Shown piece after piece: positions 5,135 through 19,487 of a stretch of 20,052 bases of DNA. Position 1 is the stretch's first letter; the number at the start of each line of letters is the position of its first letter. A model generated the notes under the pieces. The model had not been told where the DNA came from, searched no databases, and saw nothing but the letters and a program-made list of their open reading frames with translations. A program made the position numbers and the translations under genes. The stretch covers positions 46,980-67,031 of the IMG/VR virus record IMGVR_UViG_3300030419_006513. One strand, given 5' to 3'. Source of the DNA: a virus.

Positions 5135-5602
5135 TGTTTTATTTCTCCTTAATATTTGTTGTTGTTTATAAATAGATTCTAATACGGCATTTTTATATCC
5201 GTCTTCCCAATCTCGGAAACACATATTTCCCATCTCGTATGCCTGACGTTCCATTCCTCGTAGTTTATCATTGGATTGGGCATATCCCTCTCCAACTTCA
5301 CCAATATCCTCAAATTTGCCATCCTCGTTCTGTTTATGATGTATTAGTTCGTGAGCTATAGATCTCAATATATCTTTAGGGTGTCTTTTGGTCACAAATA
5401 CAGTAATAGTTGAATCACTAGGGTTGTAATAGGCAGTTTTACCTAACATCTTCTCTGCGTTTTTTGAGTCGTCTTGATATGTTATAGCAGAAGGAGGTTT
5501 ATTAAATCCTACTTTTTTTTGCATATATCCCATCAAATTCTTAGCCAAAGGATTTAAATCTGTTACGTCCATATCTGATTTGTTGTGAAATTTACAAGAC
5601 AT
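4400..5602 (-). CDS. HExxH zinc metallopeptidase-like domain fused to a tagged head-type protein
   Basis: The 400-aa frame has two parts. Residues 1-150 contain H-E-L-I-H (84-88), the gluzincin zinc-binding signature. Upstream is a beta-strand-like run (Y-Y-N-P-S-D-S-T-I-T-V-F-V) and downstream is E-R-Q-A-Y-E-M-G-N (118-126), where Glu118 or Glu123 could be the third zinc ligand. This is the layout of small phage and bacterial zincin domains. From Met157 the sequence restarts like a new protein: M-D-I-H-K-W-K-N-N-E-L-N-R-L-L-M-E-R-F-G. It continues with an SH3-like segment (I-R-F-K-D-G-S, then N-V-P-I-S-K-L-L-V-L) and a Lys/Glu-rich tail ending in a basic run. The gene start overlaps the upstream gene by 11 bases with only a weak AGAG ribosome site. 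Peptidase targets are unknown; a role in head maturation or an injected peptidase are both possible. Confidence 0.75.
   Translation of the reverse strand: MSCKFHNKSDMDVTDLNPLAKNLMGYMQKKVGFNKPPSAITYQDDSKNAEKMLGKTAYYNPSDSTITVFVTKRHPKDILRSIAHELIHHKQNEDGKFEDIGEVGEGYAQSNDKLRGMERQAYEMGNMCFRDWEDGYKNAVLESIYKQQQILRRNKTMDIHKWKNNELNRLLMERFGIKSEKEYNLEEDQDRIFAPNHYCAHHVVYEGQEAYTVDHNWDSKKQQVTKYDIRFKDGSIKRNVPISKLLVLEAFTLNEHGGEANKSKHPPVKDASKDKEDDSEVKDKEKADLNDDNKLSGYEEKRAKAIEKSMSKQAKKKKVNEANDSTLAAMAVKWLEDNPDSKLSQEKVEKAIMDNDGKIPKDLKESKKDRIFRNKVRLMLESFNFNKTNKRRVTVRKRRK
5132..5150 (-). promoter_or_regulatory. Internal Shine-Dalgarno and start codon inside the metallopeptidase gene
   Basis: On the coding strand AAGGAG (5150-5145) stands 10 nt before an in-frame ATG (5134-5132). 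Perfect ribosome sites rarely sit at such a spacing inside a gene by chance, and the codons they occupy (I-L-R-R-N-K-T-M) lie in a linker between two apparent domains. Confidence 0.6.
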
Positions 5603-8495
5603 TATATTTCTCTAAAATAATATCGAGATGCTTTAAGAATTTAGCTTCATTTATTTTGATTTTTTTGTCTTTTACATGTTTATTTAGAAATTTATAAATT
5701 AATCCTCGAACTTTCTCTATTTGCCGATCTTCTAGACCTAGAGCCTTGAGTCTTTTATTCGCGATTGCTTGAACTCCAATAGAGCCGGCCTCACCCGGTA
5801 CCCTGTCTTGCATTTGACCTTCAAAGTCTGTTCTGTCTCTCATATTATAGAAATTTGCAATTCCTTTCATATCTTGTGAGACTATTCTAGCCCATGTTTT
5901 GTCAAAAATCTCAGGTTTTTGCGTCATAGCTTTTAATTTAGGGATCAATACGTCAAGCGCTGCTTTATTTATAGACTTCTTCTTTTTTTGATCCAAATTT
6001 ATTAGTGCATCAAGTAAATTTTGTTTTTTGTTCTTAAAAGCTTTTGAAACATTTGGATCTTTAGATGCCCATTTATTCCACAACAAAGTCGACCACACTC
6101 CAAGATCTTTATTTCTGAAATCTGATTGGTATGTTGCTTTTCCAAGTTCTTCTAAGGCTCCTCCATTTTGATCAGGGATGGTTTTCATATCCGGACTCGA
6201 CGCTTCATCACTCTTATCGTCTTTTTCTTTTGTATCTTCGTTTTTCTCTGGAATTCCGGTAATTTCTATACCGTCTTCTTGTAGGGTAGGTTGCATTATT
6301 CTCATGAATTCATCGATAATTGCATCTTCACCACCATATTTTTTGCCATCGGTACCTAGGTCGTCCATTTGGTCGATCATATATGCTTTTACTTTTTCGT
6401 AATCATATTTTTCAAGCAACAACCAAGACGTATCACCACGAATAAAAGCTTCTGCAACTAATTTAACTTCGTCAGCCTCATCTTGAACATAGGTTGCAAG
6501 GGCCATTATCAATGTATCAGCAAATTCTTCTTCAGACCAATCTGGTTTAGATTTCATGAATGCTGCATTTAATTTCTTTTCATAATCTGCGATTTTGTAC
6601 TCTTTAGCCTCTTCTTGTTCTTCAGCGCCTTCTTCTGTGTCTTTTTCTTCATCTTCTCCACCTTCTTCTCCACCAGAATCATCAATAATTTTCTCTAGTT
6701 CTTGTGGTTCTAGTTTTTCATCTTGATCACCTTTGGCAGCTTCTATTTTTTGTTGTACTTCCTCTCTCTCTTCTTGTCCAAGTTTATAAACCTTATACGC
6801 GGTTTGTTTAAGAGTTTCTAATTCTTCTTTATCTTCTGGGTCAAGTTTTTTAAATTGCTTTTTATTAAAGATGTTCTTAATCGCTTTCTCTGCTTGTCTG
6901 GGTGTCATAGTTTTTCCAGCAAGCGAAGGATCAATTATTTGGTGTAAATCATCTAAAAACTTTTCATAATTGTTTTTATTTTTAACTTCTTGAGATTTAC
7001 CTTCAAATATAAAGTCTTTAAGTCCGTCCTTTAAGAACTCAAGTAGACTGTTTTTTCTTCTTGTTATTTCAGAATTTGGCGAAATAAACAATTTATATGT
7101 GTGCCTGTTAATTGCTTCTTGTAAAGCATCAGCAGGCTTTAACTTATCTGCCGGCTTCAAAGGTTCAGCTTGCTTGATTTCTCCTTTCTCCTTTTTACCT
7201 TTGTTTGGATCAGAAGTTTGCACTGTTTTAAGATTATTAGCCTTAAGGTGTTTAGATAAGTCTTTTAAAATAGCTTTTATAACTTGCTCAATTTTACCAG
7301 TATCCACTTTTTCTATTTGCTTATTTTGTTTCATCTGTTGCATCGTTGCGAACAATTCTTTTCTTAAAATATTAGCTAGAGATTTTCCACCCATACCTTT
7401 TCCTACTTTGAAAAGTGGTATACCAAATTGCTCTTTTTCGCCTTCCTCTGGGGGTTCTGATTTTGGATCATTAGGGTCTGTTCCTTTTTCTTTTTCTTCT
7501 GCATCAGGAGTGCCATCGCCATCGCTATCAGGTCCACCTTTATTGTCATCATCAACAATATCTTTTGCCTTTTCGGCAGTCTTTTTAACTTTATCGCCAA
7601 TTGGAACCTTTTGTTGTAACGCTTGCGCAATTAAAAGGTCTAAGATCTTTAGCATTATATCATCTTGTCGGTTAACCGGGGCATTCTGGGCTTGATTAAA
7701 CCCTCTGTTTACAGCTTTGGCAAAATTTGCTGGCATTTTAAACATTTCATCGTAAGTTGTCTTAAGGGATCCCCATATGCTCTTAATTGTACCAAACAAG
7801 CTTTTGGCATTTGGGTTTTCGACATTAGGAGTGCCAATTTTTTCTGGTCCATCGGGTTCACCTTGTGAATTAGGGCCTTGATCGGGTCCTCCCTCAGTTG
7901 GGGCAGCACCAGCACCAGCAGGATCAAGCTTTCCATCATCTGGAGCTAATATTTCCAATTCCTGCTTCTTCATATCACCAGTCGCATCGTCTATAAAGAA
8001 TTTTATTGGCTTTAGGTTATTTTTAGAGCGAATATTATTCAATTTGTTAGAAAGTTCTTGAGCTTCTGCTTCAAGTTTTCTAGCTTCTTGTTTCATTTTA
8101 GCTAATTCTATTTCTCTGTCTGATCCTTGTTCAACGCCTTTTTCTGCCATTTGCTTGTCAGCTTGTACAAGCCCTGCATAATCTTTTCTCATTCTGGCAG
8201 CCTTTTGAAGAAGTTGTTTAACTTGAGCCTCAATGGCGGCCGCTTCTTTTTGGTCATCTGGCTTTAACTTGGCTTTAATTCCAGCAAAAGCTCCTTTAAA
8301 CCAATCACCTAAACCTTCATTTAACAGTATATTAGGAGTTGCAATAGCTTCATGTAAAAAATAGTCATAATTTTCGACTACCATTTGATATTCCCTTTTG
8401 GAATGCTTATGTTTTACCTCATTTAGAATTAATTTGCGCAAAAGTTCTTGATTAAAAATTCTTTTTTGCGACTCTGACAACATTTTTGTATTCAT
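5592..8495 (-). CDS. Large tagged internal head-type protein with DxDGDG calcium-type repeat
   Basis: This 967-aa protein has no enzymatic family I recognise. The N-terminus holds tag-like and cleavage-like sequences: L-L-R-K-L-I-L-N-E-V (18-27), V-V-E-N-Y-D-Y-F-L-H-E|A (39-50) and I-L-L-N-E|G-L-G-D-W-F-K-G-A (56-69). Residues 85-160 are helical and charged. Residues 323-344 (D-S-D-G-D-G-T-P-D, then G-T-D-P-N-D-P) form one thrombospondin-type-3-like calcium-binding repeat. Asp/Glu/Pro-rich linkers surround it and recur near 590-632. A further cleavage-like F-I-F-E|G occurs at 495-499. This alternation of ordered and acidic linkers, with several cleavage-like sites, suggests a virion protein processed into pieces. 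The start has GAGG about 10 nt upstream, and the CTATTTA motif lies 36 nt upstream. Confidence 0.8.
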   Translation of the reverse strand: MNTKMLSESQKRIFNQELLRKLILNEVKHKHSKREYQMVVENYDYFLHEAIATPNILLNEGLGDWFKGAFAGIKAKLKPDDQKEAAAIEAQVKQLLQKAARMRKDYAGLVQADKQMAEKGVEQGSDREIELAKMKQEARKLEAEAQELSNKLNNIRSKNNLKPIKFFIDDATGDMKKQELEILAPDDGKLDPAGAGAAPTEGGPDQGPNSQGEPDGPEKIGTPNVENPNAKSLFGTIKSIWGSLKTTYDEMFKMPANFAKAVNRGFNQAQNAPVNRQDDIMLKILDLLIAQALQQKVPIGDKVKKTAEKAKDIVDDDNKGGPDSDGDGTPDAEEKEKGTDPNDPKSEPPEEGEKEQFGIPLFKVGKGMGGKSLANILRKELFATMQQMKQNKQIEKVDTGKIEQVIKAILKDLSKHLKANNLKTVQTSDPNKGKKEKGEIKQAEPLKPADKLKPADALQEAINRHTYKLFISPNSEITRRKNSLLEFLKDGLKDFIFEGKSQEVKNKNNYEKFLDDLHQIIDPSLAGKTMTPRQAEKAIKNIFNKKQFKKLDPEDKEELETLKQTAYKVYKLGQEEREEVQQKIEAAKGDQDEKLEPQELEKIIDDSGGEEGGEDEEKDTEEGAEEQEEAKEYKIADYEKKLNAAFMKSKPDWSEEEFADTLIMALATYVQDEADEVKLVAEAFIRGDTSWLLLEKYDYEKVKAYMIDQMDDLGTDGKKYGGEDAIIDEFMRIMQPTLQEDGIEITGIPEKNEDTKEKDDKSDEASSPDMKTIPDQNGGALEELGKATYQSDFRNKDLGVWSTLLWNKWASKDPNVSKAFKNKKQNLLDALINLDQKKKKSINKAALDVLIPKLKAMTQKPEIFDKTWARIVSQDMKGIANFYNMRDRTDFEGQMQDRVPGEAGSIGVQAIANKRLKALGLEDRQIEKVRGLIYKFLNKHVKDKKIKINEAKFLKHLDIILEKYNVL

Positions 8496-8798: not shown

Positions 8799-9848
8799 TT
8801 ATCCTTCTTTTTTCTCTTCTTCTGCTGCTTCGTCACCTTCTTCTCTTTTTTCTTCGTCTTTGGCAGCATTTTCTTCGTCTGCTTCTGCTCTAGAAGCATC
8901 TTTTTCTTGTTTATCTGCTAGTTCTTTCTGTTCATCTTTATAATCTTCAAATTGTTTTTCAAAATCGGCTACTTTACTTAAAGTGTCGCCCACTTCTTCT
9001 GGCTTCATATCGCCCATATTGTCAAGCATATCTGCTAACCCACCTTCTTCAGCTTTTTTGCTATCTTCAAGCCATTTATCGGGATCTAGACCAGAATCTT
9101 CTAATGCTTTCATGAATGCGGTAAGCTCTTCTGGCTCTAGATCTTCAAATTGTTGCCTAAATTCTTCTGCTTCTTCTTGAGTTTCTGCATCTGCTGCAAA
9201 CCTATCGGCCACTTGTTGCACCCATTCCGCTTGCGCCTTATCTTTTTCAGAAGTGGCTTTATTCCATGCATCCAAAGCTTTTGCATCTTCTTCTGCTGAT
9301 TTTTGATAAGCTTCTCCTTGTTCAACAGCAGCTTCTCCTTGAGCAGCGACAGAATTTGCCAAATCGCCAAAGCCACTAGCAACATCTTCTTGATTTTTGA
9401 AAAAGTTTGCAAGTGCCGCTTGTATAGCCTTTGCAATATCTGCTTGAGCGCTCTCCGATTCGGCTTGTTTTCCAGTGCTATCGCTAATTTCAGCAGCAAC
9501 ATCTCCAAGTTCTCCGAATTTCTTGGTAGTTTCTTCAGCGGCTTGAGCAGCCTCTTGATTAGTTTGCTCCATTTCTTTGAACTGATCTTCTATATCATCG
9601 CCCGGGCCAGTATCTTCTAATGTGTCTTTGATTGTATTTACCGCATCTTCTGATTCCTCTGCTGCTTTCTGTTGCGCGGCGGCTCCTTTTTGAAATTCGC
9701 CTGCACCTTTCTTTCTGGCATCAACCACTTTGCCCATTTGATCCCTAGCTGCCTTGGCTTTGTCTTCTCCTGCCTTTTCTGGTATTTCTTCGACATCAGC
9801 TTCGGTTAAAAATCCTCTCCAACCTTCCATTATTAATTTCATTTTCAT
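8799..9848 (-). CDS. Highly acidic tagged helical protein, putative capsid core/scaffold or internal protein
   Basis: This 349-aa protein begins M-K-M-K-L-I-M-E-G-W-R-G-F-L-T-E|A, a clear example of the second tag type with a prohead-protease-like L-T-E|A end. The rest is almost entirely Ala/Glu/Asp/Lys/Gln helix without Cys, ending in a Glu-rich tail (A-A-E-E-E-K-K-E-G). Composition and length fit a scaffold/core or internal head protein, but the region has no residue pattern that fixes a family. GGAG stands 10 nt before the ATG, and it overlaps the upstream tagged gene by ATGA, so the two tagged proteins are probably co-translated. Confidence 0.8.
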   Translation of the reverse strand: MKMKLIMEGWRGFLTEADVEEIPEKAGEDKAKAARDQMGKVVDARKKGAGEFQKGAAAQQKAAEESEDAVNTIKDTLEDTGPGDDIEDQFKEMEQTNQEAAQAAEETTKKFGELGDVAAEISDSTGKQAESESAQADIAKAIQAALANFFKNQEDVASGFGDLANSVAAQGEAAVEQGEAYQKSAEEDAKALDAWNKATSEKDKAQAEWVQQVADRFAADAETQEEAEEFRQQFEDLEPEELTAFMKALEDSGLDPDKWLEDSKKAEEGGLADMLDNMGDMKPEEVGDTLSKVADFEKQFEDYKDEQKELADKQEKDASRAEADEENAAKDEEKREEGDEAAEEEKKEG

Positions 9849-10201
9849 TTGATTTGTTCTCCAGTTTTCGCACTAACGTAAATCATGGCATCTCTTTTAA
9901 ATTTTGAGTTAATTATAGTATGTTGGATGTCATTAATTGTCTCCGGACTAGGATTTGGTGAATCTATATCTGGCCAATTGTGTGTATTCAAGAATTTAAT
10001 CAAATCTTCAACATCTTTTTGTTTTTTTGCTTTATAATAATCTGTCCTGATGGGCATATTAGACGGAAGATGTACGAGTTGGTACCATTTTTTGCTTTTT
10101 GTGTGACCTTGTAAGAGTCGTATACCCCAAACTCCACTAGACCAACGAATATCGTTACTTTCTTTAAGAAATTTATTCCAATTTTCCATTAATTTTTTCA
10201 T
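9845..10201 (-). CDS. Small tagged protein, putative capsid-internal
   Basis: This 118-aa protein begins M-K-K-L-M-E-N-W-N-K-F-L-K-E|S, the LMENW tag with a cleavage-like L-K-E|S. The mature part is a short alpha/beta sequence (W-G-I-R-L-L-Q-G-H, then W-Y-Q-L-V-H-L-P, then D-V-E-D-L-I-K-F-L-N-T-H) that I do not recognise. AGGAG with a 7-nt spacer supports the start. The ATG directly follows the stop of the broken gene upstream (TAAATG), and the TGA stop overlaps the next ATG. Its last codons show TGA is used as a normal stop in this genome. Confidence 0.75.
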   Translation of the reverse strand: MKKLMENWNKFLKESNDIRWSSGVWGIRLLQGHTKSKKWYQLVHLPSNMPIRTDYYKAKKQKDVEDLIKFLNTHNWPDIDSPNPSPETINDIQHTIINSKFKRDAMIYVSAKTGEQIK

Positions 10202-10638: not shown

Positions 10639-11598
10639 TTAGTAGTTATAGGTTATTTCTACTAACGAATTTCCATCTGGTAGTATATCAAAGTATACTC
10701 GATTCTCAGAAGGCTCATAGTGCCAGTCATTATACACCATTCCGTTAACAAAAACAAATATAAAATTTTCATCCAAGGGAGCGTATGTTAGATCCCAATA
10801 TTCATATGGTTCAATTTGAGTTGAAGCATCCTGTACGCCGGCCGTCCAATCTTCAGAACAAATATCAATAACTTGACCACCAAAATAATTTGTAGCGTCA
10901 ATATATCTTGTTCCATCCCATGTAGCTTGATGTGGACATAGTGTATCCGCTTGTGGAAGATTAACAATTGATGCTAAATATACATTATTTCTGTATGAAG
11001 TAACCCAAGAGAGAAATTGATTAACTTGCGAAAAATATACGTTGCTCTGTTCCTGTTCGTCTGAAACAAATACGACTAATAAGGCGGCATCAGGGCGCAT
11101 CCAAGTCAAAGAATAGTCATTTTCCATTACATAAGCATATAAAGCATCAAATCCAGCTTCAAAAGCGCCCTTTTTTGATGCCAAATACATATTTTCTGCA
11201 TCTAAAGCAGTGTCGCCGGGCACTAAAGGGAACTGATCTTCATCTTTTGAGAATCTATGGTCTGCTGGGATAATAGCTAGCCGCCAGTCAGCCGATGGCA
11301 ATGCGGTCATCATAGCGCCGATTCCTTGCATTAATCGCGTTTGGTGGCTATTCATACTACCGGATGGATCAATAACCCAAATAATGTCCACTCCGTCCGT
11401 TTGTGAGGGTTGATAGAAGTGATCGACCCAAATATCTTCATAGTCTGGCGCTGTATCTTCAATTACAGTTATATTTTCTTCGATTGTAACTGCCATATCA
11501 TCGATATCAGGGTAAGAACCCTCTTTTTCAATGATAGTGTGTACTAAAGAAGTATCACTACATGCTATAGCGATAAAGAAAAGAAGAATAAAACGCAC
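10639..11598 (-). CDS. von Willebrand factor A domain lipoprotein
   Basis: This 319-aa protein opens with a short hydrophobic signal (R-F-I-L-L-F-F-I-A-I-A-C) whose Cys13 forms a lipobox, so an envelope lipoprotein is predicted. After an acidic linker the vWA domain begins with I-I-W-V-I-D-P-S-G-S-M (72-82), a complete MIDAS D-x-S-x-S. It continues to V-V-F-V-S-D-E-Q-E-Q-S (175-185), which supplies the later MIDAS aspartate. The C-terminal 70 residues look like a beta-sandwich with aromatic residues. vWA domains bind proteins through a divalent metal. The gene starts at GTG with GAGG 8 nt upstream; an ATG overlapping it is out of frame. It is flanked by gaps and may be its own transcription unit. 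It looks acquired from a host, and surface alteration or a virion-associated adhesin are both possible. Confidence 0.8.
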   Translation of the reverse strand: MRFILLFFIAIACSDTSLVHTIIEKEGSYPDIDDMAVTIEENITVIEDTAPDYEDIWVDHFYQPSQTDGVDIIWVIDPSGSMNSHQTRLMQGIGAMMTALPSADWRLAIIPADHRFSKDEDQFPLVPGDTALDAENMYLASKKGAFEAGFDALYAYVMENDYSLTWMRPDAALLVVFVSDEQEQSNVYFSQVNQFLSWVTSYRNNVYLASIVNLPQADTLCPHQATWDGTRYIDATNYFGGQVIDICSEDWTAGVQDASTQIEPYEYWDLTYAPLDENFIFVFVNGMVYNDWHYEPSENRVYFDILPDGNSLVEITYNY

Positions 11599-12076: not shown

Positions 12077-12496
12077 CTAGTCACTGAAGTCGGATGAGGA
12101 AATATATTTTTGAGCAAATTCTAATCCATCTCTTGCTGCTCTTGTTAAATTATAAGAATTATAATCTTGTATATCAACCCATTTATATTTTTCAACTTCT
12201 TCTAATTGTAAAATGATGTCTTTTCCTTTCCATTCGGATACAAAAAAGAAATGTTTTGGTTTTTTATGATTAGTTTCGCCAATTTTAACTGCTTTTTTAA
12301 CTTTTAATCCGGTTTCCTCAAAGCACTCTCTATAAAGACCTTGTTCTATGCTTTCTCCAAAATGTAAATGTCCGCCGGGTAAGTCATATGCCGTGTCATT
12401 TGTTATTTTTAGTAATAATATTTTTCCATATTCATTATAGAATACACCCTTTGATACAATATTAATGTCTTTATTCTTTTTTTCATTAATCATCAT
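12077..12496 (-). CDS. Nudix hydrolase
   Basis: This protein of about 139 aa carries a complete Nudix box, G-x5-E-x7-R-E-x-x-E-E-x-G at residues 42-63 (G-H-L-H-F-G-E, then R-E-C-F-E-E-T-G-L). These residues bind metal and cleave nucleoside diphosphates linked to another group. The flanking strands (K-G-V-F-Y-N-E-Y-G-K-I-L-L-L-K and Y-D-L-P-G-G) match the family fold. Substrate cannot be read from sequence: oxidised dNTP, NAD-type dinucleotide, RNA cap and sugar nucleotide are all possible. The ATG at 12496 is preferred over one at 12520 because it forms an ATGA overlap with the stop of the 50-aa membrane peptide gene. It ends in TAG. Confidence 0.85.
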   Translation of the reverse strand: MMINEKKNKDINIVSKGVFYNEYGKILLLKITNDTAYDLPGGHLHFGESIEQGLYRECFEETGLKVKKAVKIGETNHKKPKHFFFVSEWKGKDIILQLEEVEKYKWVDIQDYNSYNLTRAARDGLEFAQKYISSSDFSD

Positions 12497-12645
12497 TTTT
12501 CTCTTTGGGTTATTCTGCATTGATTGTTTTCTAAATCTTTTATTTTTTTATTAAGAAAATGAATCTCTAATTTCATCACGATTGCTAGATATATCATTAA
12601 GCAAACACACAACACGTTAACCCAATCAGATATATAAATTTTCAT
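12493..12645 (-). CDS. 50-aa single-span membrane peptide
   Basis: The frame reads M-K-I-Y-I-S-D-W-V-N-V-L-C-V-C-L-M-I-Y-L, then a charged helix L-N-K-K-I-K-D-L-E-N-N. Residues 8-24 should span a membrane, followed by a short coiled-coil-like tail. GGTGA stands 5 nt before the ATG, and the TGA stop overlaps the Nudix start as ATGA, which is the strongest support that it is real. No family is recognised. Small phage peptides with this shape can be lysis accessories or membrane anchors. Confidence 0.55.
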   Translation of the reverse strand: MKIYISDWVNVLCVCLMIYLAIVMKLEIHFLNKKIKDLENNQCRITQREK

Positions 12646-13067: not shown

Positions 13068-13673
13068 TTATTTAATTTTGTTGATTTCTTCTTTAATTAA
13101 TTTTTTCAAATAAGAAGTGGTAACTTTTGATTCTTGCATCATTTTCATGGCCGGTTCTTCCATAGCTGGCTCCATAGCAGCAGGTTTTGCCATATCCATT
13201 ACATCTTGTCCTAGTTTCATTCCGATCTGTAGCATTTGGTCTATATTCAACAAATACCCCTCACCAGATACACTCTGTACGTTCATTTGAAATTCACGCC
13301 CCGGAACGGCATAATACCAGCTACCGGGCTTTTGCATTGAAGCTTCACTTCGATTAATAGAATCAATACCTGTAACAACTGGATATGGTTCTCTAGTTTT
13401 ATAAGCTAGTGCCGATTCTTTGTTATACAAGCGATATCTACCCATCGGTTTATCGCCTCTTTTAATTGCTCTAACGGTAACTAAATCTCCCTCTTTAATC
13501 CCTGTTCCCGGAATAGTTGCCGCAGAAACACCAGTCACTACAGGCTGCTTGCGATAATCGCCATCACCCTTAAAATCTTTTAATTTCAATACTTCGTTAA
13601 TAAGTGACTTTGGGTTAATATTTTCCATTTCTTCTTTAATTAGTTTTTTCAAATAAGATGTTGTAATATTCAT
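13068..13673 (-). CDS. Protein carrying the N-terminal tag at both ends
   Basis: This 201-aa protein begins M-N-I-T-T-S-Y-L-K-K-L-I-K-E-E and ends V-T-T-S-Y-L-K-K-L-I-K-E-E-I-N-K-I-K, so the tag is repeated almost exactly at the C-terminus. After the first tag, S-L-I-N-E|V is a cleavage-like site. The body has a beta-rich part (E-G-D-L-V-T-V-R-A-I, then G-S-W-Y-Y-A-V-P-G-R-E-F). A Met/Pro/Ala/Glu-rich linker (A-A-M-E-P-A-M-E-E-P-A-M) precedes the second tag. The body is not recognised. AGAGG with a 7-nt spacer supports the start, and it overlaps the upstream gene by ATGA. A hairpin terminator follows. Confidence 0.8.
   Translation of the reverse strand: MNITTSYLKKLIKEEMENINPKSLINEVLKLKDFKGDGDYRKQPVVTGVSAATIPGTGIKEGDLVTVRAIKRGDKPMGRYRLYNKESALAYKTREPYPVVTGIDSINRSEASMQKPGSWYYAVPGREFQMNVQSVSGEGYLLNIDQMLQIGMKLGQDVMDMAKPAAMEPAMEEPAMKMMQESKVTTSYLKKLIKEEINKIK
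13084..13124 (-). repeat. Direct repeat copy 1, encoding the C-terminal tag
   Basis: This 41-bp segment matches 13627-13667 at 37 of 41 positions by eye, in the same orientation. It encodes T-T-S-Y-L-K-K-L-I-K-E-E at the C-terminus of the gene. High DNA identity suggests a recent duplication. Confidence 0.75.
13627..13667 (-). repeat. Direct repeat copy 2, encoding the N-terminal tag
   Basis: This is the partner of 13084-13124, encoding the N-terminal T-T-S-Y-L-K-K-L-I-K-E-E of the same protein. The two copies lie about 540 bp apart and could recombine to add or remove a tag. Confidence 0.75.
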
Positions 13674-13882
13674 TTTTTATCCTCTCTAATATTTTTTAAA
13701 AATTTTTGCATTGATTTGACATCGCCACCTAGTGGGGGATGAATAAATGGAAAAATTGCATGAATTAGTTGGGCATATGCAGCAATTTGCATTTTAGCTG
13801 ACAATAATAATGCACACTTCATGTGTCCAAAATAAGATTCATTAATTTCTTTCAAATGTTTAGTTAAAAATTTCATTTTCAT
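13670..13882 (-). CDS. DUF6356-like small membrane-associated protein
   Basis: The 70-aa sequence N-E-S-Y-F-G-H-M-K-C-A-L-L-L-S-A-K-M, then L-I-H-A-I-F-P-F-I, then L-x-K-F-L matches my recollection of the short DUF6356 family (E-S-Y-x-x-H, then a hydrophobic helix, then H-A-x-x-P). That family's function is unknown. Residues about 20-45 could lie in a membrane. The N-terminus (K-F-L-T-K-H-L-K-E-I-N-E|S) also ends in a cleavage-like motif. There is no clear Shine-Dalgarno; the start may be coupled to the gene upstream, whose stop lies 11 nt away. It overlaps the next gene by ATGA. Confidence 0.65.
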   Translation of the reverse strand: MKMKFLTKHLKEINESYFGHMKCALLLSAKMQIAAYAQLIHAIFPFIHPPLGGDVKSMQKFLKNIREDKK

Positions 13883-13893
13883 ATTTTAAATAG

Positions 13894-14397
13894 TTATTCA
13901 TCTCTTGATATTTCTTTTAATTTCCATCCAATAGCAAGAATTCTTTTTGTCTTCCCAGTTAATGCAACAGAATAGAAATTATTATCATAACCATGTTTAA
14001 AATCCCATGACCCTAAAATATTATCCATACTAACTGCATTAAGAACAATGCCAGATTTTTCCAGTTCCCTTATTATATCATCAGTCACGCCTATATCAAG
14101 CTTTTTCATAACAATACCAATATCTTTATCGTGCCTAACTAAAGTACCTACTGGTAATTCCCCATGCGAATAAATAATATCATCCGGATCTGACCAATTT
14201 AAATCAGGTAATGGCTCTCCAGTGTTAAACATTGGCGGCCAAGTCGAACTACAGTTAATGCCATATGCATAATCTTCATCAGTGTAGCCATATACTTTAT
14301 CATAATCCTCATCAGTATATGTTTTATATGCTTCTTCTAATTCTCTTATAGCTAGCTCTGATTTTGCCTTTATCTTTTTGTCTTTCTTATCAGACAT
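13894..14397 (-). CDS. Hypothetical protein with SH3-like core and Tyr/Asp-rich repeat
   Basis: This 167-aa protein starts with a basic run, then a short duplicated Y-T-D-E-D-Y (about residues 27-43). Next is an acidic-aromatic linker with W-S-D-P-D-D, and then L-P-V-G-T-L-V-R-H-D-K-D-I-G-I-V-M-K-K, another small-barrel-like element. The end (K-R-I-L-A-I-G-W-K-L-K-E-I) is a beta strand and tail. No family is recognised. It overlaps the stop of the tagged upstream gene by one base (TAATG), with AAGGAT 11 nt upstream. Confidence 0.7.
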   Translation of the reverse strand: MSDKKDKKIKAKSELAIRELEEAYKTYTDEDYDKVYGYTDEDYAYGINCSSTWPPMFNTGEPLPDLNWSDPDDIIYSHGELPVGTLVRHDKDIGIVMKKLDIGVTDDIIRELEKSGIVLNAVSMDNILGSWDFKHGYDNNFYSVALTGKTKRILAIGWKLKEISRDE

Positions 14398-15029
14398 TAA
14401 CTGGCTAATCCTTTTTCCCGGTCACGGGCAGCTTTCATTTGAGCGAGTTTTCGCTGAAGTCCATCATCGGCAACTTGCTTTTCATCTCCAGCGGGAGGGA
14501 AAGGAACGCCTTTACTAGCCATTATACTTTCTATTTTGGCCATAAGTTCATCTGATGATGGCTCTCTACCAGCTTCACTCTTTGCTTTAATATAATCCCA
14601 AAGCATTTTAAGTCCAAACGCCCCACCAGCAACTGCACCCATGGCCATTACTGGGTCATCTATCATTTCGTTCATTGGTTGCTTTTCAAGAGAGATCATC
14701 GCATCAGCATCATGATCCATATTAAGTTCCTCTTCTAAATAATGATATACCATTGAAATATAATCAGAAGCTTTGGTAATCTTTGCTTGAACCCATGAAG
14801 GTAAATTAGCTTCTGGCATGTTTTCCATTCTAGAGGCTAGTGATTGTGAGTATTTAGCGGCTTTGTTTAATTGTTTGTATGCCATTCGAATTTCATGATC
14901 TGATCCACCTGTGATAGTGGTGTTCTCCCCGGTATGCAAGTGAGAATCGCTAGTACCTTGGCTATCTGCCATAACAGCAGCACATTCTTCTTGTATAATT
15001 TGTCTAAGTCTTTTTTTAGTAATATTCAT
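14397..15029 (-). CDS. Tagged phage head-type protein
   Basis: This 210-aa protein begins with a full tag, M-N-I-T-K-K-R-L-R-Q-I-I-Q-E-E. The central region M-A-Y-K-Q-L-N-K-A-A-K-Y-S, then L-P-S-W-V-Q-A-K-I-T-K-A-S-D-Y-I, then Y-H-Y-L-E-E-E-L resembles a helical segment (W-V-Q-x-K-I-T-K-A-x-D-Y) that I recall as repeated in marine T4-like phage virion proteins of unknown function. A Gly/Ala-rich hydrophobic stretch follows (V-M-A-M-G-A-V-A-G-G-A-F-G-L) and may touch membrane. AAGGA with a 9-nt spacer supports the start. The role is inferred as capsid-internal. Confidence 0.8.
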   Translation of the reverse strand: MNITKKRLRQIIQEECAAVMADSQGTSDSHLHTGENTTITGGSDHEIRMAYKQLNKAAKYSQSLASRMENMPEANLPSWVQAKITKASDYISMVYHYLEEELNMDHDADAMISLEKQPMNEMIDDPVMAMGAVAGGAFGLKMLWDYIKAKSEAGREPSSDELMAKIESIMASKGVPFPPAGDEKQVADDGLQRKLAQMKAARDREKGLAS

Positions 15030-15041
15030 TTTTATTATTCC

Positions 15042-15437
15042 TTATTTGTTCGGGTTCCTTTCTGGTGCAATTTTATAAAGCAAGTCTTCCACAGCGTTGG
15101 GTTCGTTGCGATCAATCTTGTATGCCTTTATAAGTAAGTCCAAGAAATCATTTTCTGAAAAATTTTTATAGAATATAGGCTTGATATTGACTAGCTGCCC
15201 ATCATCATCCCAATATTTTATATCATCGGGTTTAACCCCGGGGTGTTCTTCTCCTAAATATAAGCCAATCCATGCCAAAGCTATTTCTGTTTTGCCTCTA
15301 GGGGTTTGAACCCTCCAAAGACCTAATTTTTCTCTTTTTTCATATGGTTCAGCCCCGGTCGGCTTAAGACCCAAACTTAATTGCATTTCTTTGATGACCA
15401 TTTCTTTTAGCATTTTATATGTTAAGGTGTTTGACAT
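15042..15437 (-). CDS. Hypothetical protein with a diverged tag
   Basis: This 131-aa protein has an N-terminus, L-T-Y-K-M-L-K-E-M-V-I-K-E-M, that is a looser version of the I-I-K-E-E tag. The body is alpha/beta (G-L-W-R-V-Q-T-P-R-G-K-T-E-I-A-L-A-W-I-G-L, then D-F-L-D-L-L-I-K-A-Y-K). No family is recognised. It follows the upstream gene by 6 bases, using GAG in that gene's last codons as a weak ribosome site, so it is probably co-translated. Confidence 0.7.
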   Translation of the reverse strand: MSNTLTYKMLKEMVIKEMQLSLGLKPTGAEPYEKREKLGLWRVQTPRGKTEIALAWIGLYLGEEHPGVKPDDIKYWDDDGQLVNIKPIFYKNFSENDFLDLLIKAYKIDRNEPNAVEDLLYKIAPERNPNK

Positions 15438-15443
15438 ATTTGA

Positions 15444-16604
15444 TTATCTCGTAGCTTTAAGAGCATCGATTATAGCTTCTTTAGATTGATTAGGATCGAT
15501 GTTGAAATGTTCTAGTGTTTTTAAGTATCCTTTTGATTTCATAAATGTGTCGATATCCGCGCCGGGGTTTTGAAGTTTAGCTTGTATATGCATGCCCATG
15601 GTATCCCAGTTTATAGAATCTCCGGAAACTCCGGAACCTGCCTGATCCAACATTTCTTGAGCTTCTCTTGCATCCAATTTATCGATATATTCTTTCCCAC
15701 CTTTAACTAAATCAAGCATATCTTCGGCGGCAATAGTTAATCGCTGGCTATCACCGGAATTTAAAAACTCTTTAGCTTTCAGCGCGTTTGGATCTTCAGA
15801 TATAGCATTCGCAACTTCAGATAAATTAAGTTCACCTTTTAGATCTATAGTTTTCTTAAGCGCTTCAAGTGCAGCATCGTATCTTTCTGAACCAATACTC
15901 CTTGATAGAACTTCTGCTTTATCTGGGTCGGTCATAAGTTCATATATTCTTTTCATCTCTTCATTGGAAGCAATCATATCTGTCACGCCCTCGGCTGCAT
16001 CCGCCGGATTCCAATTATTTACAATCAGATCAGCAGCCTGCGCATCACTTGAAAGCAACACTGAAGCGGCCATTAGAGTGACAGTTGCAGCAACCATGTT
16101 TAATGTTTTATTGATTTTTGGATATTTTTTCGCAAATTTTGCTTTCATTTTAAAAAGCTTTTGCACACCCCCAACGAGTTTTCCGATCATTCCGCCTTTA
16201 AGAGCTTTTCTGCCCATGGCCATGGCTTTTTGACCTAGCATATATAATTGACGACCTAATTCTCCAACCGGATCTTTTGCAAATTCTTTTACAGTAGCGG
16301 CTGCTCCCTTAAGAAAGCTAACTAAGCCTTCTTTAAGAATTTTGTTGCGTTCGCCCCAAACACAATGAACAGACTTTTCCCATCGTCTATAAAGTTGATT
16401 CCATTCTTTAATTGTTTCAACTTTGTTGATCTCTTCCAAAAGCGAGGTTGAACCAACAACTTTTTTTCCTTCAAAAATGAGTAATTGAGAATCTCGCTTA
16501 AAGGTTTGGTGTTCTGTGGGGTTTCCCCTTGCAAACCGGCGAAAATTTTCCATTATTGTTTGCAAATCTTTATTTGCATGGCTTACATATTTCTTCGTTC
16601 TCAT
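15444..16604 (-). CDS. Tagged protein with buried signal-like membrane segment
   Basis: This 386-aa protein has a tag-like region, L-Q-T-I-M-E-N-F-R-R-F-A-R-G (14-27), and a cleavage-like I-L-K-E|G-L-V-S-F-L-K-G-A-A (89-102). An Ala/Lys-rich amphipathic region follows, then a hydrophobic helix (about 167-185) ending in S-S-D-A-Q-A|A-D, which reads like a signal-peptidase site. The rest is soluble and helical, with no recognised family. If residues 1-92 are removed in the prohead, the mature protein would start with a membrane-active segment. AAGGGG stands 8 nt before ATG, and the CTATTTAA motif lies about 24 nt upstream. Confidence 0.75.
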   Translation of the reverse strand: MRTKKYVSHANKDLQTIMENFRRFARGNPTEHQTFKRDSQLLIFEGKKVVGSTSLLEEINKVETIKEWNQLYRRWEKSVHCVWGERNKILKEGLVSFLKGAAATVKEFAKDPVGELGRQLYMLGQKAMAMGRKALKGGMIGKLVGGVQKLFKMKAKFAKKYPKINKTLNMVAATVTLMAASVLLSSDAQAADLIVNNWNPADAAEGVTDMIASNEEMKRIYELMTDPDKAEVLSRSIGSERYDAALEALKKTIDLKGELNLSEVANAISEDPNALKAKEFLNSGDSQRLTIAAEDMLDLVKGGKEYIDKLDAREAQEMLDQAGSGVSGDSINWDTMGMHIQAKLQNPGADIDTFMKSKGYLKTLEHFNIDPNQSKEAIIDALKATR

Positions 16605-16648
16605 AGATAAAATCCCCTTTTGTTACATTAAATAGTTTATTTGACGCT

Positions 16649-16762
16649 TTAAAGATCTAGATACAGCACTAAAAACAAAAAAACAAAAGTCAATATCATA
16701 AAGAGAGCTTCCATTTTGTCAAAACCGTCACATTCACATTTTTCTTTATTCTTTTTTGCCAT
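16649..16762 (-). CDS. 37-aa single-span membrane peptide
   Basis: The frame is M-A-K-K-N-K-E-K-C-E-C-D-G-F, then a long hydrophobic helix with I-L-T-F-V-F-L-F-L-V-L-Y-L (residues 20-35). A basic N-terminus, a C-x-C pair and a strong C-terminal membrane span suggest a real peptide inserted in the inner membrane. It begins inside the last codons of the thioesterase gene and fills the gap before the next gene. The ribosome site is weak (AAGG 11 nt upstream). No family is recognised. Confidence 0.5.
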   Translation of the reverse strand: MAKKNKEKCECDGFDKMEALFMILTFVFLFLVLYLDL

Positions 16763-17138
16763 ATTTATCTTTAACCTTTTGTGTTAATGGGATAGCCTCT
16801 CCATCTCCATCAATTCTGACAAAGACCATATTGATTGTGCATACTGCCTTTTGAGTACCGTTGTAAACAGAATGCCTTCTGGCCTCTAAGCGTATAGTCA
16901 TACTTGTATTTCCGACCCTAAGCACCTCGCCGTATATCTTGATTATCTGCCCGGGCCGGACCGGTTTTTCAAAGGTTACGGCCGATATATGTTTTGTAAC
17001 CATTCTGGGCGTATCGCAACACTGAGCAGCAAACGCTGCGCCTGCCTCATCGAGCCAAGCAAGCATTCGCCCACCAAAAAGATTGCCATGGTAGCCCACT
17101 TGGCTACTCTTGCAAAAGTAAGTCGTTATCAAATCCAT
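16746..17138 (-). CDS. Hot-dog fold acyl-CoA thioesterase (YciA-like)
   Basis: The 130-aa length is typical of single hot-dog acyl-CoA hydrolases. Residues 16-35 (Y-H-G-N-L-F-G-G-R-M-L-A-W-L-D-E-A-G) are the family signature N-x-F-G-G plus hot-dog helix with its acidic residue Asp30. The strands V-T-F-E-K-P-V-R-P-G-Q and K-I-Y-G-E-V follow as expected. It should cleave acyl-CoA to CoA and free acid as an oligomer in the cytoplasm. AAGGA with a 7-nt spacer supports the start. It is untagged, unlike its neighbours, and looks like an auxiliary metabolic gene; chain-length preference cannot be read. Confidence 0.85.
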   Translation of the reverse strand: MDLITTYFCKSSQVGYHGNLFGGRMLAWLDEAGAAFAAQCCDTPRMVTKHISAVTFEKPVRPGQIIKIYGEVLRVGNTSMTIRLEARRHSVYNGTQKAVCTINMVFVRIDGDGEAIPLTQKVKDKYGKKE

Positions 17139-17177
17139 TTTTCAATCCTTGTTTTCGTCGCCAAAATTTTCCGTTTT

Positions 17178-17732
17178 TTAACCTTGGTAGAACGGGTTAT
17201 CATAAACTTCGTCTTCAATAGTATCCATAAGTTTATTGAAAGCTATTAGAATCTTTCTATTGCCTTTATAAGTCTTGCCCAAATGTTTGCCTATAATATC
17301 ATCAATGCCCTTTCGAATTGCCGGAACTTTCTCTCCAATCGCAGCGACACCACCACTATGTTCGGCATCTTCTTGATCTTGGTATATAGAGCCTTTATAT
17401 TCATAGTCATCGGCATCACTATCACTATCAGCATCAGGTTGGTGTGCCCAATCCCATGCGGATCCTCCCTCTTTAAGTTGACCTTCAAAAAAGCTACCAC
17501 CACCAAGTGCAGCTTGGGACATTAGGCCCTTCTTATAATTATCCAAGAATTCTTTAACAATAGCCATAACAGTTTTAGATGGGTTGTCTAGTTGATGGGT
17601 TTTTATGAATTTTGCTATGGCATCCCGCAGCGCGTTTGCTTCCTTATCGGCGCTCAATATGGTGTTCTGTTCCATCAATGATTCTATCTCTTCTTTAATA
17701 ATTTGCTCAAGTTGTGTTTTCGAAATTTTCAT
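17178..17732 (-). CDS. Tagged protein, putative capsid-internal
   Basis: This 184-aa protein begins M-K-I-S-K-T-Q-L-E-Q-I-I-K-E-E-I-E-S-L-M-E|Q, a canonical tag with a cleavage-like end. A helical part follows (A-N-A-L-R-D-A-I-A-K-F-I, then V-K-E-F-L-D-N-Y-K-K-G-L). Next is a Gly/Asp/Ser-rich acidic linker (D-A-D-S-D-S-D-A-D-D), then a helical C-terminus with I-D-D-I-I-G-K-H-L-G-K. No family is recognised. AAGGAG lies 6-7 nt before ATG, and it overlaps the holin-like gene by TAATG. Confidence 0.75.
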   Translation of the reverse strand: MKISKTQLEQIIKEEIESLMEQNTILSADKEANALRDAIAKFIKTHQLDNPSKTVMAIVKEFLDNYKKGLMSQAALGGGSFFEGQLKEGGSAWDWAHQPDADSDSDADDYEYKGSIYQDQEDAEHSGGVAAIGEKVPAIRKGIDDIIGKHLGKTYKGNRKILIAFNKLMDTIEDEVYDNPFYQG

Positions 17733-18007
17733 TATTTGTCTCCTTTCATTCGCAGCATACGATCTTCCGCGTATTTTTCGCGCATTGCAGTTAGCCCGGA
17801 ATCGATTTTATCCAAAGCCCTTTCTAGAAGTTTTTCTTGAGTCTCTAGTTTCTCGGCTATCTTGTCTTGATGGTACCGCAAAGCTGCGTCTGCGCGCTTT
17901 TCGTCTTCTTTCATATCTTTGCGCATCTGCCAATTCATCCAAAGCAGGGATGCGGTCCAAAGCCCTAACGGGCCATATTGTGCCAATGCTTGTAAAATTG
18001 AATCCAT
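17732..18007 (-). CDS. Holin-like protein: N-terminal membrane span plus coiled coil
   Basis: This 91-aa protein has residues about 5-24 (L-Q-A-L-A-Q-Y-G-P-L-G-L-W-T-A-S-L-L-W) forming one membrane span. A long charged coiled coil to the end follows, with L-E-T-Q-E-K-L-L-E-R-A-L-D-K-I. The shape resembles BhlA-type small phage lysis proteins, but no residue pattern makes it certain. The start at 18007 has AAGAGGG about 7 nt upstream. The stop overlaps the next start (TAATG). Confidence 0.7.
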   Translation of the reverse strand: MDSILQALAQYGPLGLWTASLLWMNWQMRKDMKEDEKRADAALRYHQDKIAEKLETQEKLLERALDKIDSGLTAMREKYAEDRMLRMKGDK

Positions 18008-18027
18008 TCATATAACCCTCTTATTAT

Positions 18028-18822
18028 TTAAAAGTTCCCACCAGTTAAAGCAGTGTCTCCACCGACTTTCGAAGTAACATCATCTAGTCCATCAGCTACA
18101 ATATTAACTCCACCGACTATAGGACCAATCCAACCAAGCCATGCTTTCCAATCAGTTAAAGTTTGGCTAATCTTACTAACCAGATCAACACCAAAAAAAT
18201 TATTTAAAAAATCTAAGAGTTTTTTGCCATGCTGTTCAGCTAAAGCTTTAGCACCACTTTTTTTCGAAATTTCTATTAGCTCTTCGGCTAGCCCGCCAAT
18301 TTTCTTATAAACAAATTTTAAGATCACCAACGTTGACACAATAATCATAGCACCCTTCCAGCCAAGAGAGTTGTTCGCTTTTTCTATAAGTGAATTAAAA
18401 ACATCTAGCGCCTTGCTTATACCTTTCTTAATAAGCTCAGGTATTTTGTCAACTTGAAGTAAATTGGTAAGCACTCGTCTAAATACTTTAGCAATTTTAT
18501 TCATATTTCTTCTAGCAATATGAATAAAGCTTTTTAAAGCTTTAGGGTTCTTATAAATCCTATATAGAGTCTTTGTTAGGCGCTTTACTTTACCAGCCGT
18601 ATCTTTGGCTGCCTGCCATAGGCTTCCAAGAAACCCTTCGAAAAGCATATGCTCGGTTAATATCTGTTCCCGTATACTTTCTGAAATAATCGGGGTTTTA
18701 GATTCATCGAGTTGTAGCTTAATTCCTAGGGTATTGGTGATATACGAATAGTCTTCAAGGATGGACTCTTCCGACCTTGAGAATCCCCGCCAGTTCTCCA
18801 TTATAAGCTGCATATTGTTCAT
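18028..18822 (-). CDS. Tagged membrane-active protein
   Basis: This 264-aa protein begins M-Q-L-I-M-E-N-W-R-G-F-S (residues 4-14), a clear LIMENW tag. After a 45-residue propeptide-like stretch comes M-L-F-E|G-F-L-G-S-L-W-Q-A-A-K (59-73), matching the E-G-L-x-x-x-x-K-G-A junction in the genes at 5592 and 15444. A basic amphipathic region, one predicted span (156-170, A-M-I-I-V-S-T-L-V-I-L-K-F) and a C-terminal hydrophobic W-I-G-P-I-V-G-G-V segment follow. I infer an injected or capsid-internal membrane-interacting protein; no family is recognised. Its ATG directly follows the upstream stop (TAAATG). Confidence 0.75.
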   Translation of the reverse strand: MNNMQLIMENWRGFSRSEESILEDYSYITNTLGIKLQLDESKTPIISESIREQILTEHMLFEGFLGSLWQAAKDTAGKVKRLTKTLYRIYKNPKALKSFIHIARRNMNKIAKVFRRVLTNLLQVDKIPELIKKGISKALDVFNSLIEKANNSLGWKGAMIIVSTLVILKFVYKKIGGLAEELIEISKKSGAKALAEQHGKKLLDFLNNFFGVDLVSKISQTLTDWKAWLGWIGPIVGGVNIVADGLDDVTSKVGGDTALTGGNF

Positions 18823-19092
18823 TTACTTAGCTGCCTTAAGGTCTTTAATAAGCATATCTAGCTTTCTAAGCATAAGCTCTAATTCGCTGGGCTTCATATC
18901 TTCGGCATCGGCCTTAAGGTTGCGCACAATGTTGTCGACGTCGCCTGTATTGCCCTTACCTGACGGGATGTCTAGGTTTTCTTTAAGTATACCATTTAGA
19001 GTAGCCAATCTTTCTAAAATTGCGAACCGCATTTCGGCTTCATTGAGTTCTTCTCTAATGATCTGCATTAATCTTTTTTTGCTTATCTTCAT
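18823..19092 (-). CDS. Small tagged helical protein
   Basis: This 89-aa protein begins M-K-I-S-K-K-R-L-M-Q-I-I-R-E-E-L-N-E|A, the cleanest tag plus L-N-E|A cleavage pattern in the window. The remaining 70 residues are helical and charged (L-E-R-L-A-T-L-N-G-I-L, then L-M-L-R-K-L-D-M-L-I-K-D-L-K) with no recognised fold. It overlaps the upstream tagged gene by ATGA and abuts the downstream tagged gene. Confidence 0.75.
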   Translation of the reverse strand: MKISKKRLMQIIREELNEAEMRFAILERLATLNGILKENLDIPSGKGNTGDVDNIVRNLKADAEDMKPSELELMLRKLDMLIKDLKAAK

Positions 19093-19487
19093 TTGTTTTT
19101 CCGCCGCGCCCTGATCGTTTTGGTTTTTCTAGAGCGATTTTTTTTCTTTGATTCTTTCATAACATTATAGACGCCTTTCCTAGCGCTCTGGCTCGGATCC
19201 TCATGCGCAGAAGGTGATTGGGCTGCTTTTATTAGAACATCGTGCATTATATCATATGCTTGCTCATATTTTGCTGCTGCCTCTGGTGTTTGTCCATCTG
19301 TCGCCATTTCAAGCCACTCTTTTCCTGCGGCTGTCATTGCATTAATAAGGTCATTTACAATATCGATATGATCTGGTAGTCCATCTTCGGCGGATCCATC
19401 AAATTCATAACCACCTACTTCAACCTCCGATAGATTGGTCAATTCCTCTCGGATAATTCGCTGAAGTTGTTTTGTTGTAAGTTTCAT
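19089..19487 (-). CDS. Small tagged protein with basic tail
   Basis: This 132-aa protein begins M-K-L-T-T-K-Q-L-Q-R-I-I-R-E-E-L-T-N-L-S-E|V. The middle is acidic and helical; the last 20 residues are strongly Lys/Arg-rich (R-S-R-K-T-K-T-I-R-A-R-R-K) and could contact packaged DNA. AAGGAG with an 8-nt spacer supports the start, and a palindromic element lies just upstream. No family is recognised. Confidence 0.75.
   Translation of the reverse strand: MKLTTKQLQRIIREELTNLSEVEVGGYEFDGSAEDGLPDHIDIVNDLINAMTAAGKEWLEMATDGQTPEAAAKYEQAYDIMHDVLIKAAQSPSAHEDPSQSARKGVYNVMKESKKKNRSRKTKTIRARRKNK

Follow-up and report, generated by a model that had tools for sequence, protein, structure and literature searches.

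The subject of this study is a short N-terminal sequence, termed class A, that recurs on otherwise unrelated proteins in a 20,052-nucleotide stretch of viral DNA (the window; positions 46,980 to 67,031 of IMG/VR record IMGVR_UViG_3300030419_006513), the right end of a 67,031-base virus contig labelled G000. From sequence comparisons, we consider it probable (roughly 80%) that class A, a tag of ~20 residues with the consensus MKITKxQLxxIIKEELxxLLxE, is the capsid-targeting propeptide of a T4-like phage and is removed by a prohead protease of the gp21 type. An initial annotation of the window had proposed a modular packaging signal of this kind, cleaved after a glutamate, and it is the reading that best fits the T4-like nature of the viruses, the LxE end of the tag, its presence on 336 body families and its exchange between homologous bodies. 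The virus carrying the window is a T4-like phage by its baseplate genes, since the contig encodes gp6 (phrog_219, E 2.5e-23) and gp25 (phrog_261, E 1.6e-15). Its nearest relative is G052, with 64% identity in gp6; the two are collinear across much of the genome, and G052 encodes gp21, gp22 and gp23.

For a 16-column class A profile (threshold 10), 159 distinct tagged proteins were used, all from IMG/VR contigs other than G000. In G000 this profile picked up the tag at seven N-termini and at one C-terminus, and it found nothing in 20 composition-preserving shuffles of the contig's proteins. The five genes originally reported to share the tag (19089, 18823, 17178, 14397 and 13068) score between 20 and 36, and the tag they share is therefore upheld by a profile from other viruses, whereas the gene at 15042, offered as a looser copy, scores -33 and does not belong. 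The five tags had been described as nearly the same over 15 residues; they are indeed similar, but pairwise identity is only 38-69% (mean 53% over 16 residues), and the set is less homogeneous than that wording implied. The bodies of all six named genes are mutually unrelated, as had been claimed for the five (best body-body BLAST E 0.8). The other two N-terminal copies lie outside the window, in genes at 45700-46059 and 46029-46751 of G000. At the position in G052 that matches gene 17178-17732, next to a thioesterase gene, stands a divergent tag, MKIKQSELKAVIEEVVKEVLEE.

Class A is widespread among uncultured viruses. A DNA pattern for M-K-I-[ST]-x3-L-x2-I-I-[KR]-E-E matched at least 120 stretches in IMG/VR, while its reversed form had no match across the whole collection, and all IMG/VR loci fetched together hold at least 418 distinct proteins with a class A tag, which fall into 336 body families. 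Instances sit at a Met start in 470 cases and elsewhere in 6. Class A is thus a short N-terminal sequence on unrelated bodies, as is a T4-type capsid-targeting sequence (CTS). With a looser pattern, each of 45 tag-bearing records (about 40 kb or longer) had between 1 and 14 matches, and the reversed form had none.

The strongest evidence for a capsid-targeting role comes from a second N-terminal tag, class C (consensus MKLLMENWRxFLxE), which occurs in the window and in G052 and was missing from the initial list. In the window it is found on genes 8799-9848 and 9845-10201 (core M..LIMENWRGFLTE) and in partial form on 18028-18822; in G052 it was noted at 98382, 102502, 103410, 154452 and 169337. 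T4 IPII and IPIII begin with MKTYQEFIAE/A (the slash marks the cut), and when the sequences are aligned at the cut, W..FLxE of class C matches Y..FIAE of T4, with aromatic, aromatic, hydrophobic and Glu in register. Residues 4 and 7 of the T4 CTS govern targeting, and residues 8 and 10 processing (PMC9026906). Class C in the window shows this residue pattern; class A, tested for aromatics at 4 and 7, a hydrophobic residue at 8 and Glu at 10, lacks the aromatic pair and does not conform to it. A class C pattern matched at least 120 IMG/VR stretches, and a class A gene was also present in 36 of 120 among the matches listed. The two tags replace each other on homologous bodies in three natural pairs. 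The proteins L040, MKFTKTQLRQIIKEELETLQE/DGHEDV (class A), and L421, MKNLMENWEKFLNE/DGHDDV (class C), share 69% identity in the part that follows the predicted cut and no relationship in the sequence ahead of it; the P-loop kinases L097 and L415, with differing tags, share 62% identity over 209 amino acids (E 7e-84); and L120 and L440 share 37% over 143 amino acids. Because class A is swapped with the T4-like class C on homologous bodies, the two appear to be interchangeable, which suggests that class A functions as a CTS. The body of window gene 14397 has class A-tagged homologues in other phages, and one homologue lies within a class C-tagged protein of 617 amino acids (L404).

The tag ends where a gp21-type protease would be expected to cut. 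L/I-x-E is the cleavage motif of the T4 gp21 protease (PMC9026906), and [LIVMF]xE falls within residues 17-26 in 63% of 406 tagged proteins, compared with 12-13% in later windows of the same proteins and 28% (maximum 33%) in 200 shuffles of the same residues. The glutamate is mostly at residue 21 or 22, Leu predominates at P3, P1' is most often G or A, and sequence conservation stops after [L/I/V]xE at residues 18-22. Within the window, the hydrophobic-x-Glu end that had been pointed out for several tags is present in four of the five genes but not in 14397, where VMA-D follows. In addition, L-[TS]-E-G occurs near the N-terminus in 20 of the 21 related capsid proteins read. An unlikely alternative is that the tag targets the head but usually stays on its protein, LxE serving merely as a helix cap. 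It would account for the motif's absence from 14397 and from about one-third of tagged proteins, and in giant phages the processing of inner head proteins is not always conserved (PMC5694885). A helix cap would, however, leave unexplained why LxE is fivefold more frequent than in the bodies and twofold more frequent than in same-residue shuffles, why it can shift by one residue with the internal spacing unchanged, why G or A is preferred after it and conservation then ends, and why one tag swap has its junction exactly at LxE.

Likenesses to prohead proteins point in the same direction as the motif. Between gp21 and the scaffold lies the gene of a conserved protein that begins with MKKSELKxIIKECVKEVIFEEG, or with the same sequence and four extra residues, and a profile of this core-like protein aligns with class A (hhalign) at a probability of 92%, compared with 0.1% for the reversed sequence. 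Only 14 columns are aligned, so this likeness is a lead and no proof of homology. The scaffold's own C-terminal signature, R[WM]xxLAGI, also closes several proteins whose N-termini resemble class A, and it may be a second, C-terminal assembly signal. This ending or a near form was noted on non-scaffold proteins at L206 519-1316, L193 2985-4598, L190 3405-5543 and L091 3949-4146 and on the product of the L203 gene after gp21, several of them with tag-like N-termini. It could be argued that the tag is a docking helix for some other assembly or site (tail or baseplate lumen, replisome, membrane), given that tagged genes are spread genome-wide beyond the head cluster and that a short helix could bind many partners. 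We regard this as more doubtful still, as non-capsid docking predicts neither a protease motif nor exchange with a T4 CTS-like tag, and neither similarity to the core-like protein nor scaffold-like ends. That the shared N-terminus is simply ancestral (recent paralogues with diverged bodies) or stems from a repeated DNA element, and plays no part in targeting, is barely credible: tagged genes do often stand in tandem, but the 336 body families have no detectable similarity, the same body bears different tags in different phages, and pairs of tags within a locus (74% of residues identical) agree at 82% of first and second codon positions and 59% of third positions, with flanking DNA at the background level of 27-29% identity. 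The tag is therefore conserved as protein and not as DNA, and a DNA repeat or regulatory element is ruled out by the flanks.

The prohead protease gene that the initial annotation proposed to look for is present in most of these viruses. An S77 (gp21-type) protease was found in 32 of the 45 tag-bearing records (E 1e-23 to 1e-37) and Gp23 in 29, compared with S77 in one of 18 records picked by an unrelated 15-mer (Fisher p 2e-6); tag-bearing viruses thus commonly encode a gp21-type protease and the Gp23 capsid protein, and the protease is usual where a contig extends into the head genes, although G000 itself is a fragment. Seven of the 13 records without S77 carry a T4-type baseplate wedge, and the other six at least one homologue, some weak, of a T4-like tail or head-region gene. 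Because they carry these other T4-type genes, the 13 look like fragments. In 7 of 17 head clusters, gp21 has a tagged gene as its immediate neighbour. An enrichment of tagged genes around gp21 was considered and rejected relative to the whole genome; they are enriched solely in comparison with the remaining head cluster, where tag density is 0.011/kb as opposed to 0.14/kb near gp21.

Several observations weigh against a cleaved capsid-targeting signal. Besides the third of tagged proteins without the motif at the expected place, the junction lies exactly at the cut in only one swap pair (L040/L421), homology in the other two beginning a few residues later. The association between protease and tag is confounded by ancestry: both could mark one lineage, and hence the association alone is no proof of function. 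Tag density near gp21 is hardly above the 0.12/kb of other tag-rich stretches. The G000 contig is a fragment without the head cluster, and for this reason the protease of the window phage is deduced from G052. No isolate with a class A match was found among cultured phages by tblastn and pattern searches, the sole match in the isolate-directed search being the uncultured 484-kb LR756508, and neither a virion proteome nor an N-terminal sequence could be found for any tag-bearing phage.

Taken as a capsid-targeting propeptide, class A would act as follows. Residues ~3-20 would form a short amphipathic helix that docks the tagged protein on the prohead core during head assembly, and class A cargo may join the core by imitating the N-terminal helix of the conserved core-like protein. 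The gp21-type serine protease would then cut after [L/I/V]xE at residues ~18-22 (~27 in one case), the cut peptide would be lost, and the body would be retained in the head as cargo, presumably to be ejected with the DNA. Class C would do the same job in the same phages as the direct counterpart of the T4 CTS. Helix, docking partner, packaging, cleavage and ejection are all steps that we infer.

Known systems resemble class A in part. Encapsulin cargo-loading peptides are short modular peptides that load unrelated cargo into an HK97-fold shell; unlike class A, they are usually C-terminal and uncleaved, and no prohead protease is involved. The CTS of T4 IPI, IPII and IPIII is likewise a short N-terminal peptide on unrelated proteins, some of them basic, that ends in [L/I]xE (the gp21 cut in T4) in phages with gp21, gp22 and gp23, and class C reproduces its Y4/F7/I8/E10. 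Class A differs in being ~21 rather than 10 residues long, K/E-rich and amphipathic, with no aromatic pair and no similarity to MKTYQEFIAE, and in its occurrence on hundreds of body families, with as many as 14 copies in one genome and with two tag classes side by side in a single phage. The propeptides of giant-phage inner head proteins (SPN3US gp53/gp54, the phiKZ inner body) are also N-terminal and removed after x-x-E by a gp21 homologue, but most are much longer (100+ residues) and are common to paralogues rather than to hundreds of unrelated proteins. SPN3US gp53 and gp54 themselves share an identical 15-residue N-terminus on diverged bodies (PMC5694885).

Homologues with the same N-terminus in non-phage genomes would have spoken against a phage signal, as the initial annotation recognized. 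A scan of 257 Gb of bacterial and archaeal genomes gave only 11 matching stretches, on 8 contigs, all in metagenome-assembled genomes (MAGs); gp21 is present in three of the seven MAG assemblies concerned, and in one of them it adjoins a tagged gene on a short phage-like contig. No published mention of the motif was found in the open-licence papers searched, and an earlier description elsewhere is possible. PHROG matches to the tag (excisionase phrog_12527; phrog_4223) were weak and of no use. A look-alike N-terminus, MKKSQLRQIIKEALDAS, was noted in gp080 of Flavobacterium phage immuto, which has further N-termini ending in [L/V]xE; the Baltic flavophage paper reports no mass spectrometry of virions and makes no mention of immuto.

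Table 1. Tag-related features of the window (positions in the window; a slash marks the predicted cut)
Feature	Position	Strand	Sequence and predicted cut	Profile score
Class A tag, gene 19089-19487	19425..19487	-	MKLTTKQLQRIIREELTNLSE/VEVGG, residues 1-21, after LSE-21	26.3
Class A tag, gene 18823-19092	19039..19092	-	MKISKKRLMQIIREELNE/AEMRF, residues 1-18, after LNE-18	33.6
Class A tag, gene 17178-17732	17670..17732	-	MKISKTQLEQIIKEEIESLME/QNTIL, LME-21	35.9
Class A tag, gene 14397-15029 (MNITKKRLRQIIQEECAAVMA)	14982..15029	-	MNITKKRLRQIIQEEC; no LxE after (VMA-D)	21.1
Class A tag, gene 13068-13673	13593..13673	-	MNITTSYLKKLIKEEMENINPKSLINE/VLK, after INE-27	20.2
C-terminal tag copy, 13068 protein, residues 182-201	13071..13130	-	SKVTTSYLKKLIKEEINKIK	14.8
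Looser copy of the initial annotation, non-member	15042..15437	-		-33
Class C tag, gene 8799-9848	9801..9848	-	MKMKLIMEGWRGFLTE/AD; T4 CTS-like	
Class C tag, gene 9845-10201	10160..10201	-	MKKLMENWNKFLKE/SND	
Gene with partial class C tag	18028..18822	-	MNNMQLIMENWRGFSRSEES...; FLxE not directly after	

The protein of gene 13068-13673 bears a copy of the tag at each end (Table 1), and its C-terminal copy is the only one among all loci scanned. This doubly tagged protein can be likened to T4 Alt, which is processed at both termini (PMC9026906). The tagged pair at 45700-46751 of G000, just left of the window, has Lys/Arg-rich bodies (31-36% lysine plus arginine, isoelectric point ~10) and recalls the basic internal proteins of T4; one homologue in G052 is untagged. 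Small Lys/Arg-rich proteins resembling ribosomal protein S21 recur by gp21, between gp21 and the scaffold, in the head clusters L188-L207, and an S21-like protein is annotated RpsU in Microcystis phage Mel-JY01. A candidate third tag, MKHLRQYIRQIL(L/T)E (MKHLRxYIRxILxE), was seen on several consecutive genes at 2963-7897 of L211, a phage-like contig of 305 kb that is classed as a Methylococcaceae MAG. Elsewhere in the window, 16746-17138 encodes a 4HBT thioesterase (E 2.6e-18) and 12077-12520 a NUDIX hydrolase (E 1.4e-15), both with homologues in G052, and 10639-11598 a protein predicted to be secreted or lipoprotein-like, in which a VWA-like DxSGS stretch (DPSGSM) was recognized by eye and which has no Pfam match. 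A search for relatives of the window through its 967-amino-acid protein (5592-8495) gave none.

Most of 103 tagged proteins (classes A, B and C mixed) contain no recognisable domain. Recognised cargo in this set includes P-loop kinases, among them the zeta-toxin/polynucleotide-kinase type, and one each of a protein kinase, a cytosine methylase, a pentapeptide-repeat protein and an M23 peptidase. In T4, a restriction inhibitor is among the internal proteins delivered by this route, and the host RNA polymerase is modified by Alt (PMC9026906). A broader proposal, for and against which we find the case evenly balanced, is that marine T4-like phages use swappable address tags (A, C and perhaps MKHLRxYIRxILxE) for hundreds of head cargos, with class A imitating a core-protein helix, in which case the injected host-takeover proteins of uncultured phages could be read directly from sequence. 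If this is true, a 20-residue signature would mark those dark-matter proteins of large marine phages that are carried in the virion and are the first to enter the host. The proteins so flagged would be likely anti-defence or takeover factors, as are T4 IPI and Alt, and hundreds of uncharacterised proteins would become one defined, testable class and offer a new handle on packaging.

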